Assembly (NCBI GenBank): GCA_035578175.1
Contig: JAQMRL010000008.1
Location: forward strand, 11,466,963-11,530,962
DNA length: 64,000 nt
Direction: 5' to 3'
Source of the DNA: Catonia carolina
Lineage: Eukaryota > Arthropoda > Insecta > Hemiptera > Achilidae
In this document: piece after piece, positions 21,166 to 52,755 of the stretch
How the letters are laid out: every line of letters starts with the position of its first letter
How positions within the stretch are numbered: the stretch's first letter is position 1
Notes under the pieces: generated by a model
The model's database searches: none
Told to the model about the DNA's origin: nothing
The model's input: the letters and a program-made list of their open reading frames with translations, nothing else
Program-made: the position numbers and the translations under genes

Positions 21166-21690
21166 TGTTGTTTAGGTCATCAGCCTAAACAGTACATATC
21201 CATGTTAGGTATCCATGTTGTATCCATGTTTAGGTGGTTTGAATCTGTAGAGTTTTACTAAGTGAAACGAGGAGTGAGGTGGTTACTATGCCTTCCTCAC
21301 TCAGTTGAAAGAATACATGCTTATCAGCATGCCAAGCTCTCTTAAAAGCACATATTTTCCACTCTGCACATGACCACTTCACTTTATTCTCCACAGGGTC
21401 TGACTGTATAATGAAATTCATTACTTTCAGAGGAAATAAGACACTAGTCATATTTTATCTCCTCTGAGAGTAATTAATTTCATTATACAGCCACCCTGTA
21501 GTGAATGAAGTGAAAGTGTCATTTGCAGGGTGGAAAGTAGATGCTTATTAGAGGGCCTGGCATGCTGATAAGCATACTTTTCAACTCAGTGAGGAAGGCC
21601 AGGAAAACCACTTCATACCTCGTTTTACTTGGTAAAGCCTCTAGAGGTTTAAACAAGCCTTTCAGCTATTGACCTGAACAACAACATGTA
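21166..21690. repeat. Two SINE-B copies head to head
   Basis: SINE-B is a family of about 400 bp whose 3' end reads aggttcaaaccagcctttcg, then gctgatgacctaaacaac and (AAC)n. Here 21166-21450 is a minus-strand copy and 21451-21690 a plus-strand copy, meeting at their truncated 5' ends. Other copies: 26535-26940, 26970-27325, 30637-31020, 34729-35115, 52756-53155 and 57915-58300. The body is not clearly tRNA-derived, and it may be the tail of an unseen LINE. Confidence 0.7.
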
Positions 21691-27600: not shown

Positions 27601-30600
27601 ACGCAGTTTAAAATCTCTGCTTTAAAAGGGTGGTAAAAACTTGAAAATCAGAGAAGTAGAAGTATTTTTATTTATTTATTTTCATGGAAACTATTGTACT
27701 GATGGTTGTACTGGAAAGAGCTTAGTGTTGAACCGAAATTTGAACTGAAATGAACAAAACTGTGGTGTTTGAGTATGGCCAGTCATGTTGCCAAGGGCAA
27801 TTATTGAGGGTAGAGATGATATTCTAGGGTCGAGCACGATATGTGGTGCACTGCGCCATTGTGACCTCGGCCTAAGAGTACTTCTCAACAACATAACATT
27901 ACGCTGATGGTACATGCGTATTTATCTTTCAATCTTGGCCAACTACACCCAGTCCACAAACTTTAATCAGCTTAGTGGTCGCAGAAAGCTACCTAGCAGG
28001 CGAACCCACAACCCCTGAGAGGCCAAACCCAAATGAGTGGGTGCAGACGTAAGCTGCAGGGCGCCCCACTCCCCTCAGTACTCGTGTAAACATTGGTCGA
28101 GTCGCCATCAAGCTCGTTACGCCGCTAAAGTGCTTTGCACGTGGCTCTACCACATATGGAAGTACTACGCACAACCATACACTATGAGTAGCACATGGAA
28201 GCGCTACGGCCAGCGCCCATTAACCTCGAAAGCAGGCAAGGATAGGGTAGCTAAACCACAGTTTTATGGCCATGCTCTGTGTGGTCTGGGGCGTGCCCCC
28301 ATGCTGATGGTACACGCATATTTATCTGTACACCTTTCAGCCAGCTACGCCCATTCCGGAGGAATTTAAGCAGCCTAGTGGCTTTGAAGCGCTACCTAGG
28401 AACCCACAACTTGTGAGAGGCCAACCCAAATAAGTGGGTGCGGTCACGTCCGCAGAGCGCCCCACTCCCCTCAGTACTCATGTAAACGTTGGATGAGTCA
28501 CCGTTGAGCTCGTTACGCAGCTAATGCTTTGCACGTGGCTCTATCACATATGGATATTCTGCGCACAACCGTGTACTACGAATAGCACATGGAGCTGCTA
28601 CAGCCAGCATGCGTTACCTCAAAAGCAGGCAAGGATAGGATAGCTAAACTGCAGTTCTATGGGCACGCTCTGTTTGGTCTGGGGTGTGCCCCCCATACTG
28701 ATGGTACAGTAATTTTTAAAGATTCAGCAGAGGGTCTTCAGCACTTGATGAATAGAATTACGAAAGAGGGAAATGCTCTCGGTCTAAATTTTAGCCAGCT
28801 GAAAACTAAGGTGATGGTAGTCAAGTAGGTTCCTCACACTCGATGTGACTTAATTATTGAAGATCAATGGCCTAAGCAGGTTAATAAATGTAAGTATTTA
28901 TAAAGTTGGATTACAGCAGATTTAAGCATAACAATTAATTAATGTAATTGGAGAAATATTTTATTTTTATTATTAATATAGCCTACCTGATAGTAGATGG
29001 TTCATAATTTTCGTATAACTGGTTTTTACTTTGAATGTATGTGCGATAAGTGGTTTCATTTTATCAGGAAACACTGACTGTGTCCAAGGTGGTAGGATGT
29101 ATCCATTTTCTTGCTAAACATAAAAATCGCATATCATTGTAAATCATCTTTTTGTCATTTTTCAACAAGTAATCATTTGACAATAATAAACTGTTTCACA
29201 ATTGATAAACTGGGTTAAAATCATGGCTGTAAAACCTATCATTTTTATTTGAATCATTTTCAACAGACTACTATTACCATTATTCCATTTGAACTTGTGA
29301 AGAATCAGGTTTCATAGCTCTTGAATTTCTGATATTATTTCTTCAAGCACGCTTTGCAGAAAGCCCCGCCCTGTAAAACGTTCGACCAGGGTGGTCACTC
29401 AGGCCAACCTTAACGCCTTTAAATGTATCTTTAATTTGCTTCCTATTTACATATATATATATATATATATATCAAAATATTTCAAAGGATCCACCTTCAT
29501 CAGTGTACAATATACTACCTATTCAAATTAAAACTAAAGTCCAGCCTCTCTTAGTTTGCTCGTAATGTAAACAAATAATGACGTCTCTGCGCATTATATC
29601 AAAATGTGTACACGCTGATTAAAAAGTAACAACAAAATACTTTCAAAAGTATTTAAATATAAAATACTTTTAAAAGTATTTTTCTAAATGAAATTGTTAG
29701 GTATTTTAGCGATTTTCTGTTTTTTTCTCACGAAAACGTTTGAAAAATCGATTTTTTTTAAATTTTGGCCTTAGTATGCATTTTACGACAAAAGTGTATA
29801 TAATCATATTTATAGGAAATTAAAAGCTCTACATCTTTTATTTAGAGCATTTATCTCTAAACAGTGTCTGGTTTAGCATGAAAGAGTGATTTTCCGTATT
29901 TTTTAAGCCAAACTGAGGTTGAATTTCATTTTGTGTTTTTCACTCTTGATTAAAATAAGGTTTTGTTTTTTGAGGTTATCTTTTTGTTTATTTCTAATGT
30001 TTTATTAATAATGTTAGGTTATATTGGTCATTATTTGCATTGGCAGAAGAAAGTTGTGTGAATGTTTCACACCAGATTTTTCTCTAAATTTTCAAATATG
30101 TCAAACAAACATCATGAAACGTAAAAAGCGCTCGTTGCAAATTATCCTCATTATCCAAATATTTTTTTATCAAAACTTAAAATCCCTGAATTTAAAAGAA
30201 TATCTTTCTGTTACTGAAACCAACTGATACTATTTTGCTTTAGTTACTTTAATTATTTCAGTCAAAAACAACCAAATTATTGAAGTGACTTAAAACTAAA
30301 CTTAAAAAAAGAAAATGTACACATTACCTCACAAGTAAGCACATCCCATACACGGAAACAGTCTAAAAATGTTTTTATGGTCATACCAGTATGTTTTGTT
30401 AAATAATCAATTAATTCTTGATGTTGCTGTAAATATTTTCCTTCATCTTTTGCAAGTGCCAATTTTTGCTCTTCTGTAAATCGTAAACAAGTATTATCAT
30501 TTGGTATCTGAAATCATATTTCACAGTAATTAAATTTTTAGATTTTTAAAAACTTGCCTTTATGCATGTTTTTGTAATATGGAATGAGTCAAACTTTTTC

Positions 30601-39920: not shown

Positions 39921-40305
39921 AATTCAAAATCATCTTTTTACAGTCTGAGTTTTATTATAAACTTGACATCATAGTTATTACACTCTTTTATTTTTTTTTA
40001 TCTTAAAAAAGTACTTTATAGTTCAACTAAATTATGTTTTATCAGATCATTTGTTTCATTATAAACTTGACATTATTAAAATAATAATAGTAGTTAAAAC
40101 TTGTTTCTTTTTACTCTTTATTCTTTACTTTTTACATTTTTCCCTTCTTGCTTTTTTGTCTTGACCTATATAAATAAAGGTTATAGGATGGGCCATGTAT
40201 TGCACATAATTAGCCATTAATTATGTTGTTTCTATTTCATATAATGAATTAATATAATAATTTCACCATCCTTCTTTTTAAACTACGTCACCTTTATTTT
40301 TATTC

Positions 40306-40347
40306 TTACTTACACGTGTTTCGGTGGATCCACCATCATCAGAGTAA
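40306..40347 (-). ncRNA. Hammerhead ribozyme (Penelope type), left arm
   Basis: On the minus strand: stem I TTACT, core CTGATGA (40336-40342), stem II GGTGGATCCACC, GAAA (40319-40322), minimal stem III CACGTG, TA cleavage dinucleotide, stem I partner AGTAA. All invariant core bases are present. Confidence 0.8.
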
Positions 40348-40476
40348 ATAAAAAAATTGAAATTAAAAAATTTTTATCTCACTTATTTAAAATTTACAGA
40401 AGATGACTGAAGATGTATAATCTTCTGTAAATTTTAAATAAGTGAGATAAAAAATTTTTAGTTTCAATTTTTTTAT

Positions 40477-40518
40477 TTACTCTGATGATGGTGGATCCAC
40501 CGAAACACGTGTAAGTAA
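40477..40518 (+). ncRNA. Hammerhead ribozyme (Penelope type), right arm
   Basis: TTACT (40477-40481), CTGATGA (40482-40488), stem II around GGATCC, GAAA (40502-40505), CACGTG (40506-40511), TA (40512-40513), AGTAA (40514-40518). The 3-bp stem III has no loop, as in Penelope hammerheads thought to act as dimers. Confidence 0.82.
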
Positions 40519-40641
40519 GAATAAAAATAAAGGTGACACAGTTTAAAAAGAAGGTTGGTGAAATTATTATATTAATTCATTATATAAAATAAAAATAATT
40601 TCAAACTTCAGGATGCATTATAAAGATTAATAATTATGTTG

Positions 40642-49340: not shown

Positions 49341-50149
49341 AATATAGAGAAAAACCGGTTCATTTAATGACAATGTAACTTTTTGAGGGTCAAGTTAACA
49401 ACTTTGGTAACACTGTTAATCAGCTGATTGATCAAAATTTATTTTTTATTTTTTCATTCCTTTGTATGTATTGTGTGGTTCCAAGCTCCGTGTAGTTGCG
49501 GTTTGAAGGGTACGGATGAGGTATAATGAATGAGTGATGCATGCTGGGAGAACAATTGTTGTACGAGGTACATTCATAAAGTAAGTACTGTTTTGAAATA
49601 AAAAAAGAACAAGTACAGATACATCAATGAAATTTATTTCATAAAAATCTATAGCTCTTAAGGAGGGATTGTAGAGGAAAAATGAAAAAAAAAATCGATT
49701 TTCACTTTATAGGCTCATATTGTAGTTTGAAATTCCATCTTTCCAACACCACCAAAATTATGTTTCTACGACAACTAGGAATATTTTTATTAATTATTTT
49801 AGTACATGACGTTTTGCTAGAATTTCACTTCCCCACTCTGAAGATATATAAAATACTTTTTACTGTTTTAGCGCCATTTTGGTAAAGATCTAATTATTAT
49901 TTCTTTTTTATACATGTTACAAGTATTTTTCTTATTGTTTATCAACTGACGGTTGGCAATGATGAACAGCTGTTTACAATAATATTGACTTATTAACATG
50001 TAAAATATAGTAATTTTGAGCACTTGTAACACTTTAAATGCGTTTTACCGAAAATTTATATTTTCTGTACACATTTCTATTTCATATAATGAATTAATAT
50101 AATAATTTCACTAACCTTCTTTTTAAACTGTGTCACCTTTATTTTAGTC

Positions 50150-50191
50150 CTACTTACACGTGTTTCGGTGGATCCACCATCATCAGAGTAA
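50150..50191 (-). ncRNA. Hammerhead ribozyme of Penelope-like element, left
   Basis: Minus strand: TTACT, CTGATGA (50080-50086 offset +100, i.e. 50180-50186), stem II around GGATCC, GAAA (50163-50166), CACGTG (50157-50162), TA (50155-50156), AGTAG. All invariant bases are present; the last stem I pair is a G-U. Confidence 0.82.
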
Positions 50192-50297
50192 ATAAAAAAT
50201 TGAAACTAAAAATTTTATTCATTTATTTAAAATTTACAGAAGATGATACATCTTCAGTCACTTGTATAAAACTGATTTAAAATTAATTTATTTTAAT

Positions 50298-50660
50298 TTA
50301 TCCCTTCTCATATTTACTGTAGATAGCAGCAGCAGTCAATATCACTTCATCATTCCTAAATTTTATCTGTTCATTCAAAATGTCCTGCTTTTGCTCTTTT
50401 AAATATTTATAAATGTGGAACATCTCATATTTTTCAATTTTATTTTTATTCTCTATATTACATTGTTCTATTATATTGAAATGTTCATCTATTTTACCAA
50501 ATTTATGTTTTTCTTCTTTTATATGATTGGTATAGTTAGATATAATGTAGTCACATTTCAGTGCTTTTTTATGTTCATTATACCTCACTTGAAAATTACG
50601 ACTAGTCATACCAATATAAAATTTTTTACAATCCTCATTACCACAATCTATTTTATACAC
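50298..50660 (-). CDS. Penelope GIY-YIG endonuclease domain (minus copy)
   Basis: 120 codons. Starts YKIDCGNEDCKKFYIGMTSR, with the Cys pair and YIG of Penelope GIY-YIG nucleases, then FQVRYNEHKKAL with the catalytic Arg and His. Conserved Glu is expected in the helix near IIEQCN/NKIEKYE. The domain is intact, but it is separated from the RT frame by an AT-rich expansion at 50760-50870 (tatttatactattttataat repeats) that brings stops. Nearly identical to the plus copy at 51899-52267. Confidence 0.85.
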   Translation of the reverse strand: MYKIDCGNEDCKKFYIGMTSRNFQVRYNEHKKALKCDYIISNYTNHIKEEKHKFGKIDEHFNIIEQCNIENKNKIEKYEMFHIYKYLKEQKQDILNEQIKFRNDEVILTAAAIYSKYEKG

Positions 50661-50850
50661 ACCCTTTTTATTGCTTAGTGTTTCATTTATATTATTTTTA
50701 ATTATATTTGTGGACAGTAGTTTTTTATTATTACATGTGTATGCGATTTTATAAAATTTATTTAATGTTCTGTATAATTTTATACTATTTATAATATTTA
50801 TACTATTTTATAATATTAATAATTTATAGTATATTTATAGTATATTTATA

Positions 50851-51783
50851 CTATTTTATAATATTAATAATTTTATTGTATTTTAATGCAATAAATGGTT
50901 TATGTTTTATTTTATTATCTAATATAAGGGTGGTTCTCAAGTTATTTTTAAATTGTAGTTTGTTTTTAATTTTATTTATTACTTTATTTATTTCTTTTTC
51001 ATGATACCCATTCTTTTGTGCTATGAATTTTATTGTTCGTAATTCATTTTCTAGTAGTTTTTTATCTTTTATATAATTATATGCTCTGTGAATCATACTA
51101 TGGTAAGCTGCCATTTTATGTGAGTATGGGTGGTTAGATGACTTATTTATATTTGTTACTGGTAATATACTTTTACGAAATACACCTGTTGTTATTTTAC
51201 TATTACCCTTGATTAATTGTATGTCCATGAAATTTAATTTATTATTATTTTCAAGTTCCATAGTGTGGTGTAATTTATCATCAAATGTATTTAATTTTTT
51301 TTAAATAACATCCTCTTCATTTTTATATGTCTTTTCCAATATTACCAGTATGTCATCTACATATCTGTGCCACATTACTACATTATGTGTATGTTCTATT
51401 TGATACACAGTTATTTCTTCAAAATATTGTAAATAAATTTCAGACAAAATAGAGCTTAATGGTGCTCCCATAGTAAGTCCATCTTTTTGTTTGTATATTT
51501 TTTCATTAAATTTAAAATAATTTTGTGAAGTACATTGTCTCAATAATCCTATAACTTGCTTTACTTCATCTTCATGCAATTTATGTTCTGTTAATTTATT
51601 TTTTATAATGTTTATGGTTTTATCAATGGGTATATTAGTGTACATATCTTTGATATCAAAAGACAAAACACAGACAAAAAACAAACTACAATTTAAAAAT
51701 AACTTGAGAACCACCCTTATATTAGATAATAAAATAAAACATAAACCATTTATTGCATTAAAATACAATAAAATTATTAACAA
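50851..51783 (-). pseudogene. Penelope reverse transcriptase (5'-truncated, one stop)
   Basis: From about 51670: FDIKDMYTNIP (motif A), GLTMGAPLSSILSEIYL (motif B), RYVDDILVI (motif C, catalytic YVDD). After KNEEDVI a TAA stop at 51301-51303 interrupts, and the same frame resumes to 50851 with the thumb and linker (KLNFMDIQLIKG, HKMAAYHSMIHRA). The region above about 51672 is the inverted partner, not RT. N-terminal fingers are missing. Confidence 0.85.
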
Positions 51784-52267
51784 TAAATTATACAGAACAT
51801 TAAATAAATTTTATAAAATCGCATACACATGTAATAATAAAAAACTACTGTCCACAAATATAATTAAAAATAATATAAATGAAACACTAAGCAATAAAAA
51901 GGGTGTGTATAAAATAGATTGTGGTAATGAGGATTGTAAAAAATTTTACATTGGTATGACTAGTCGTAATTTTCAAGTGAGGTATAATGAACATAAAAAA
52001 GCACTGAAATGTGACTACATTATATCTAACTATACCAATCATATAAAAGAAGAAAAACATAAATTTGGTAAAATAGATGAACATTTCAATATAATAGAAC
52101 AATGTAATATAGAGAATAAAAATAAAATTGAAAAATATGAGATGTTCCACATTTATAAATATTTAAAAGAGCAAAAGCAGGACATTTTGAATGAACAGAT
52201 AAAATTTAGGAATGATAAAGTGATATTGACTGCTGCTGCTATCTACAGTAAATATGAGAAGGAATAA
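51664..52267 (+). CDS. Penelope linker and GIY-YIG domain (plus copy)
   Basis: The open frame is continuous from the junction (about 51676, KNKLQFKNNLRTTLILDNK) through the linker (NKLYRTLNKFYKIAYTCNNK) to GIY-YIG (YIGMTSRNFQVRYNEH) and stop at 52267. It lacks the AT expansion seen in the minus copy, so it shows the ancestral reading. Codons before about 51676 come from the inverted RT and are not native. Probably not expressed as such. Confidence 0.8.
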
Positions 52268-52373
52268 ATTAAAATAAATTAATTTTAAATCAGTTTTATA
52301 CAAGTGACTGAAGATGTATCATCTTCTGTAAATTTTAAATAAATGAATAAAATTTTTAGTTTCAATTTTTTAT

Positions 52374-52415
52374 TTACTCTGATGATGGTGGATCCACCGA
52401 AACACGTGTAAGTAG
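52374..52415 (+). ncRNA. Hammerhead ribozyme of Penelope-like element, right
   Basis: TTACT (52374-52378), CTGATGA (52379-52385), stem II GGTGGATCCACC, GAAA (52399-52402), CACGTG (52403-52408), TA (52409-52410), AGTAG (52411-52415). Same design as the other three copies. Confidence 0.82.
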
Positions 52416-52755
52416 GACTAAAATAAAGGTGACGCAGTTTAAAAAGAAGGTTAGTGAAATTATTATATTAATTCATTATATGAAATAGAAATATTTCAAA
52501 CTGCAGGATGCATTATTAAGATTTATTTCTGTACACATGTTCCATTTTCTGAAAAACTATTAAAGATATAGTCCTGAAATTTCTACAGCAGTATGATATA
52601 CACATACTGGACCACATTCATGCGAAAACATTGGTTACAAAAAATTTTTTATGAAAAATCAATGAAAAAAAAAAATTTTTTAACTGTCACAGAAATTATT
52701 TTTCAAACCCCCCCTCAAAATGGGATCACTATGAATGTGGTTCAGTAAACTAATA

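Follow-up and report, generated by a model that had tools for sequence, protein, structure and literature searches.

A palindrome of two Penelope termini

The 64,000-nucleotide stretch of Catonia carolina DNA analysed here (the window) contains a 402-bp palindrome (40229-40630) that consists of two terminal arms of a Penelope-like element (PLE), each with one hammerhead motif, and that has no coding sequence, raising the question as to how such a structure arises and whether it multiplies in its own right. It was first noted as a miniature palindrome of hammerhead termini with its own 11-bp target duplication, and this is borne out: when the centre is chosen optimally, 171 of 183 positions are paired across the two arms (at most 86 in 200 same-letter shuffles), and the palindrome is flanked by exact copies of TAATTATGTTG (40218-40228 and 40631-40641), for which the probability of chance occurrence is about 5e-5 allowing for slack in the boundaries.

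We describe positions within the arms by d, the number of bases upstream of the left boundary in the sense orientation, such that d=1 is the final base of GAAATAGAAA, which is position 40595 of the right arm and, mirrored, 40229 of the left arm. The left arm (40229-40406, minus strand) is an antisense pLTR with its outer end at d=1, the putative reverse transcription (RT) start 1, and has no tail. The right arm (40404-40595, plus strand) is a sense pLTR that runs from d=187 to d=1 and is followed by a 35-nt PLE tail (40596-40630, plus strand), the end of which is the putative RT start 2. The earlier view that the palindrome is made of two termini only is thus right as to the two pLTR arms, but these are unequal, the tail being present on the right alone. 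The last three bases of the left arm, TGA, are common to the right arm and constitute the junction homology. The arms are mismatched at seven of 176 sites, with no indel, and ten alignment columns unite them against both arms of the related insertion described below (four further columns, which arose from where the sequences were trimmed for alignment, being set aside). The palindrome matches no Rfam family at gathering score, and relaxing the threshold to E 10 still brings up no hammerhead model; the matches below threshold are chiefly to microRNA precursors, as is expected for any long hairpin.

A second inverted insertion in the window

BLAST identifies a sole clear relative of the palindrome elsewhere in the window, an insertion at 50075-52525 that had been regarded as a full element. 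It is not full length, and is itself an inverted pair of 5′-truncated arms: a tailless antisense left arm of about 1.6 kb (50075-51672, minus strand; inner end approximate) is joined to a sense right arm of about 0.82 kb (51673-52491, plus strand; start approximate), which is followed by a 34-nt tail (52492-52525, plus strand), and the whole is flanked by an exact 13-bp target duplication, TTTCTGTACACAT (50062-50074 and 52526-52538). The two arms are mismatched at only six of 815 sites, and the coding part of the left arm contains a 79-nt TA-rich expansion (approximately 50781-50859) that is absent from the right arm. A stop codon in the sense arm (52265-52267, plus strand) lies 24 nt before AGTTTTATAC (52292-52301, plus strand; d=200 to 191), the preceding two bases of which make the initiator-like TCAGTT. 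Comparison of joined flanks reveals no empty site for either insertion within the window.

The left arm carries reverse transcriptase and endonuclease-side coding sequence with breaks. The reverse transcriptase part matches PF00078 (E 5.6e-11) and its best relatives of solved structure are telomerase reverse transcriptases (E 3.3e-06), a likeness that is expected for a Penelope-like element. The GIY-YIG endonuclease is recognised by eye only, from a GVYK..FYIGMTSR motif in an ORF of this insertion; this part has no Pfam match and no relative of solved structure, and a single-sequence structure model of it is poor (pLDDT 53). For the endonuclease-side protein, viral_contigs (viruses), genome_contigs (prokaryotes) and a protein database yielded no relatives; the first two of these say little.

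Copies across the genome

When the 402-bp palindrome was used to search the 1.47-Gb Catonia carolina genome and the best 40 of 2564 candidates were scored and fetched, all 40 proved to be near full-length copies; one (L010) is a duplicate of another (L007), a single insertion having been duplicated, which leaves 39 independent copies. The locus is thus not unique. Because this first set is ranked by likeness to the whole 402 bp, and favours similar length, we also searched with the outer 131 bp only, scoring 40 of 1036 candidates and fetching 30 loci, of which 24 are new and six were already in the first set. This outer-end sample is still a best-scoring set, and since both queries include the tail the two samples cover tail-bearing palindromes. 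To map the left arms we used DP for the first set and BLAST for the outer-end sample. The outer-end sample comprises 22 short palindromes, six solo copies, one nested copy and one longer copy (L062) that bears a 20-bp inverted stub; counting this stub, 23 of the 30 loci are inverted, and a single locus (L074) has direct neighbours.

Exact target duplications of 11-14 bp flank 29 of the 39 independent copies (12 bp in 19 of these), and in these 29 the left end deviates from d=1 by -4 to +6 and tail length ranges from 33 to 49 nt. For the remaining 10 the best exact repeat is 0-9 bp by script, and by eye a 12-13-bp duplication with one mismatch is seen at L004 and L036. The fixed left boundary that was seen in the window is therefore a genome-wide property, with no sign of scattered boundaries, and the outer ends as a whole are fixed: the left lies at the RT start, and the right follows a tail whose length is mostly 33-50 nt. 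In a single copy, L029, both ends bear a tail.

Several individual loci have unusual structures. At L026 the flanks past both tails are inverted copies of each other, such that the palindrome exceeds the element; the main copy at L007 is adjoined by a diverged mini palindrome (L007:1170-1291) in which two hammerhead cores are close together; and L074 (L074:821-1630) contains nested arms of this family side by side, some inverted and some direct.

Junctions and the relationships of the arms

The 39 copies represent 38 distinct combinations of the two arm ends and the filler between them. Ten have no filler, 26 have 1-10 nt and three have 20-30 nt, and the sole shared junction (L002 and L034) is at a 7-nt homology and its two occurrences have different target duplications. 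The arms, compared in the 39 copies together with the 50074 pair, diverge by 6.5% within pairs, as against 9.0% when left and right arms are paired at random, and none of 10,000 permutations is as low; arms are thus more alike within than between copies. Own arms are nonetheless tree sisters in only eight of 40 pairs, and the own partner is the nearest arm, or tied for nearest, for 21 of 80 arms, a weak clustering such as old arms of 138 bp would give. For 43.3 of the 80 arms the most similar arm from another copy is a same-side arm, so that there are no left and right lineages. Because the junctions differ and the arms are closer within than between copies, these comparisons indicate that the palindromes are not replicated as units and that each is made afresh. 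An early idea of ours, that the window locus is a one-off truncated twin insertion, was overturned by the genomic copies and their junctions.

If a master palindrome gave rise to further complete palindromes, in the manner of a MITE, these would also be numerous and have fixed outer ends, target duplications and terminal inverted repeats. The variety of junctions contradicts this as far as sampled, the tail ends are variable, neither left-arm nor right-arm lineages exist, and the copies do not have the common interior from a master that is characteristic of MITEs and DNA transposons; we find this explanation hardly credible.

The inner limit of the arms

The arms rarely extend past about 200 nt from the RT start, at a position between TC and AGTTTTATAC. 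In the first set right arms are concentrated at d=195-202 (15 of 39; scan P 0.0016 against a uniform spread), a range in which, by script, only two of 39 left arms end. Among the sense arms of the outer-end sample 17 of 30 end at d=195-202, two extend beyond (to 264 and 449), and 11 are shorter (130-187); for three of these loci (L050, L055 and L071) the script overran into left-arm letters and the sense-arm start was taken by eye. At least one arm ends at d=193-202 in 17 of the 22 short palindromes, and both do so in eight. The 83,673 bases of flanking sequence, which neither query selected, add two examples: L006 contains a solo fragment whose start is at d=199-200, and the arms of a diverged palindrome in L021 meet at AAAAC/AGTTTT. 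The window copy is among those that stop short, with inner ends at d=187 and d=170, and five left arms stop at d=139, inside an A/T run. If the arms reflect copying that runs off the end of a template, then early stops or later central deletions must be assumed for such copies; inspection by eye suggests that in L012, L035, L021, L005 and L019 both arms were once at d~198-200 and that one has lost an inner piece.

The TCAGTT at this inner limit fits the initiator consensus TCAKTY, which is that of Drosophila (PMC6483594). At 13 arm starts at AGTTTT, in 12 copies (L062 and L063, both of which continue upstream, are left out of this count), the preceding base is G in six, the genomic C in five and A in two; the frequency of G at inner bases is 14%. 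Copying of a cap would leave an extra G. The exact first base of the RNA is unsure, as G precedes six of the 13 starts yet the genomic C precedes five and the numbers are small, and where C is present some templates would begin a base or two earlier. There appears to be a defined 5′ end of the template at the inner arm ends, about 200 nt inward of the left boundary. The preliminary description also invoked a defined RNA 5′ end, but placed it at the left boundary, which is better explained as the RT start. At the centre of L053, AGTTTTATAC is present twice in direct orientation, as though the 5′ ends of two templates had been fused.

Hammerhead motifs and probable reverse transcription starts

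The sequence CTGATGATGGTGGATCCACCGAAACACGTGTA is present in each arm of the palindrome, and a minimal hammerhead motif is found in all four arms in the window. In the palindrome the motifs are at 40311-40342 (minus strand; predicted cut after 40311) and 40482-40513 (plus strand; predicted cut after 40513, with the ATG at 40488), the predicted cut being 26 nt downstream of the ATG. The left boundary is 108 and 107 nt from the hammerhead ATG in the two window insertions, in agreement with the earlier observation that it is the same to within one base, and their right ends are 141-143 nt after the ATG. The hammerhead assignment, and with it the predicted cleavage, rests on motif and geometry. Across the genomic copies the hammerhead core diverges by 2.5%, as against 6.1% for the rest of the arm, and is exact in 36 of 80 arms; from this lower divergence the core probably matters to the source element. 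Exact matches to the core were found neither in viral_contigs (viruses) nor in genome_contigs (prokaryotes), a result of little weight for this insect.

The frame from the hammerhead ATG (52385 and 40488 onward, plus strand) reaches a stop at codon 9, by eye, and this stop lies within a GTAAGT that resembles a splice donor; introns are known in PLEs.

A similar geometry has been described for the Poseidon element PAc of Anolis carolinensis, in which the hammerhead cut is 26 nt, and the RT start 111-118 nt, after the ATG (PMC11167929). Since the arrangement in Catonia parallels this, with the same 26-nt cut and with 107-108 nt in place of 111-118 nt, the constant left boundary most probably represents an RT start, 3′-proximal on the sense strand.

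Origin of the palindromes

We consider it likely that the palindromes are solo inverted-pLTR insertions, generated by target-primed reverse transcription from both cut strands that runs off the 5′ end of the RNA. The positions of the ends are the basis for this model, including its RNA start, cap and run-off. The RNA would begin within the pLTR, at the initiator-like TC/AGTTTT. The element endonuclease would then cut both target strands; the duplications of about 12 bp imply staggered cuts with 3′ overhangs of about 12 nt, as priming on two strands requires. Each 3′ end would prime reverse transcription at an internal site of the RNA, the first site being d=1 and the second lying 33-50 nt 3′ of it, consistent with the fixed ends observed here and with the internal priming at two sites on both strands that is reported for PAc in vitro (PMC11167929). 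Where the 5′-proximal start site is used, two short run-off ('strong-stop') cDNAs, terminating at the RNA 5′ end or short of it, would result, because only about 200 nt separate the 5′-proximal RT start from the 5′ end of the RNA; the limit of about 200 nt is observed, and run-off would be its cause. Finally, the 3′ ends of the cDNAs would be joined through short homology or filler to give a head-to-head palindrome, with the new junction each time that is seen in the copies. Longer inverted pairs such as that at 50075-52525 would fit the use of a start site that is distant from the 5′ end of the RNA.

A head-to-head structure would also be generated if one strand were copied and then folded back and copied itself, and such self-priming on an antisense template has been proposed for the Penelope elements of Adineta (PMC3846280). 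The centre of the window palindrome can form a 7-bp hairpin (-8.0 kcal/mol), and its 3-nt junction homology would permit snap-back. Self-priming predicts a tail at both ends, however, and among the 22 short palindromes in the outer-end sample only one has a tail on its left arm. Moreover, in the 50075-52525 insertion the tailless arm is the longer and has its private 79-nt expansion, so neither arm is a copy of the other, which favours two priming events over the self-priming reading; we regard self-priming as quite improbable.

A third explanation, similar to that suggested in the preliminary description, is that the short copies form a non-autonomous lineage, self-feeding or retrozyme-like, which is transcribed and the RNA of which is inserted in trans by Penelope proteins, apart from any coding element. 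In the outer-end sample short copies far outnumber longer ones, only two of 30 sense arms passing d=202; short arms hold the initiator-like site together with both RT starts, and most short copies share a pLTR subtype unlike that of the coding copy in the window. This same subtype is nevertheless found at L063, which reaches d=449 in endonuclease coding sequence, and the mRNA of the parent therefore suffices as a template. In addition, all 30 sense arms of the outer-end sample (the shortest reaching d=130) cross the hammerhead cut site at d~82, so that their templates had not been cut by the hammerhead; the units are inverted, with direct neighbours at L074 only; and a read-through transcript of the window palindrome would form one long hairpin, with computed energies of -239 and -247 kcal/mol for the two strands. 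We consider a separate lineage of this kind unlikely, and the same holds for a retrozyme as such. The fixed boundary, the multiple copies and the likeness of arms within copies on which the earlier interpretation turned are all upheld, and what falls away is the boundary as an RNA 5′ end and the need for a retrozyme-like lineage.

There is also a variant in which insertion from two templates is normal for the element, two RNAs being copied at once, and the run-off products are now a self-feeding non-autonomous family. The two RNAs might be paired via the hammerhead palindromes GGTGGATCCACC and ACACGTGT, with a computed dimer gain of 16.6 kcal/mol, and run-off products of about 200 nt would carry the initiator and both RT starts and need no downstream sequence. 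We think it unlikely that this combination as a whole is correct.

Relationship to known elements

The telomerase-like reverse transcriptase of the 50074 insertion, the minimal hammerhead recognised by motif, the inverted pLTRs, the one-sided tail and the short target duplications are together those of EN-containing Penelope elements. In Adineta vaga, Pen2a and others are described with an inverted left pLTR of about 200 bp, an optional one-sided tail of about 31 bp and target duplications of 8-10 bp, an arrangement regarded as typical, and cases are given in which other sequence is caught between solo pLTRs with target duplications (PMC3846280). The anatomy of the palindromes, including a pLTR of about 200 bp, is thus within a known class. 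In Catonia, unlike in the Adineta elements as described there, nothing lies between the inverted pLTRs, the form is abundant, and the inner ends share a stop point. With PAc the insertions have in common not only the position of the cut but also a tail between two RT starts and AT-rich targets: PAc is reverse transcribed from two neighbouring internal sites, the intervening sequence corresponds to the genomic tail, and cleavage and extension occur on each of the two target strands (PMC11167929). PAc itself is described as tandem repeats and its reverse transcription was tested on given RNAs; the accessible portion of that account yielded no description of short double-primed insertions that end at the RNA 5′ end (PMC11167929).

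Animal retrozymes are small (170-400 nt), AT-rich, non-coding hammerhead repeats that are possibly served by PLE proteins (PMC7229834), and the palindromes resemble them in being small, AT-rich, hammerhead-bearing and non-coding. Retrozymes are nonetheless described as direct tandems of a type I hammerhead unit (PMC7229834), whereas here the units are inverted pairs, the ends of which would correspond to starts of reverse transcription and to the 5′ end of an RNA rather than to hammerhead cuts.

In LINE-1 twin priming the second target strand also primes reverse transcription and the cDNAs are joined by short homology, which yields a 5′ inversion of one copy. The Catonia insertions differ in that the two primers would start at sites next to each other, giving a duplicated head-to-head pair.

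The inverted pLTRs and one-sided tails of Penelope elements have been described before, and their origin is not settled. We recognised no description of palindromes made of pLTRs only in the portions of the Penelope literature that were searched, which is weak evidence of absence. The palindromes are genuine and abundant products of a known class of element, and informative ones: dozens of independent insertions would record the RT start for each strand at their ends and the end of the template at their centre, and thus provide a readout of the process. The run-off model predicts a transcription start at TC/AGTTTT, priming on two strands, and run-off products. It would also provide a source of abundant small hammerhead palindromes, and potentially of hairpin RNAs, without a separate parasite lineage.

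Two other features of the window are noted. A further palindromic stretch is present at 21237-21654, with a self-inverse match of 431 columns at 79%, in which the hammerhead core was not matched. An additional CTGATGA-N-GGTGGATCC motif at 29503 (minus strand), which occurred in none of 200 simulated windows, is possibly a decayed hammerhead of another PLE.
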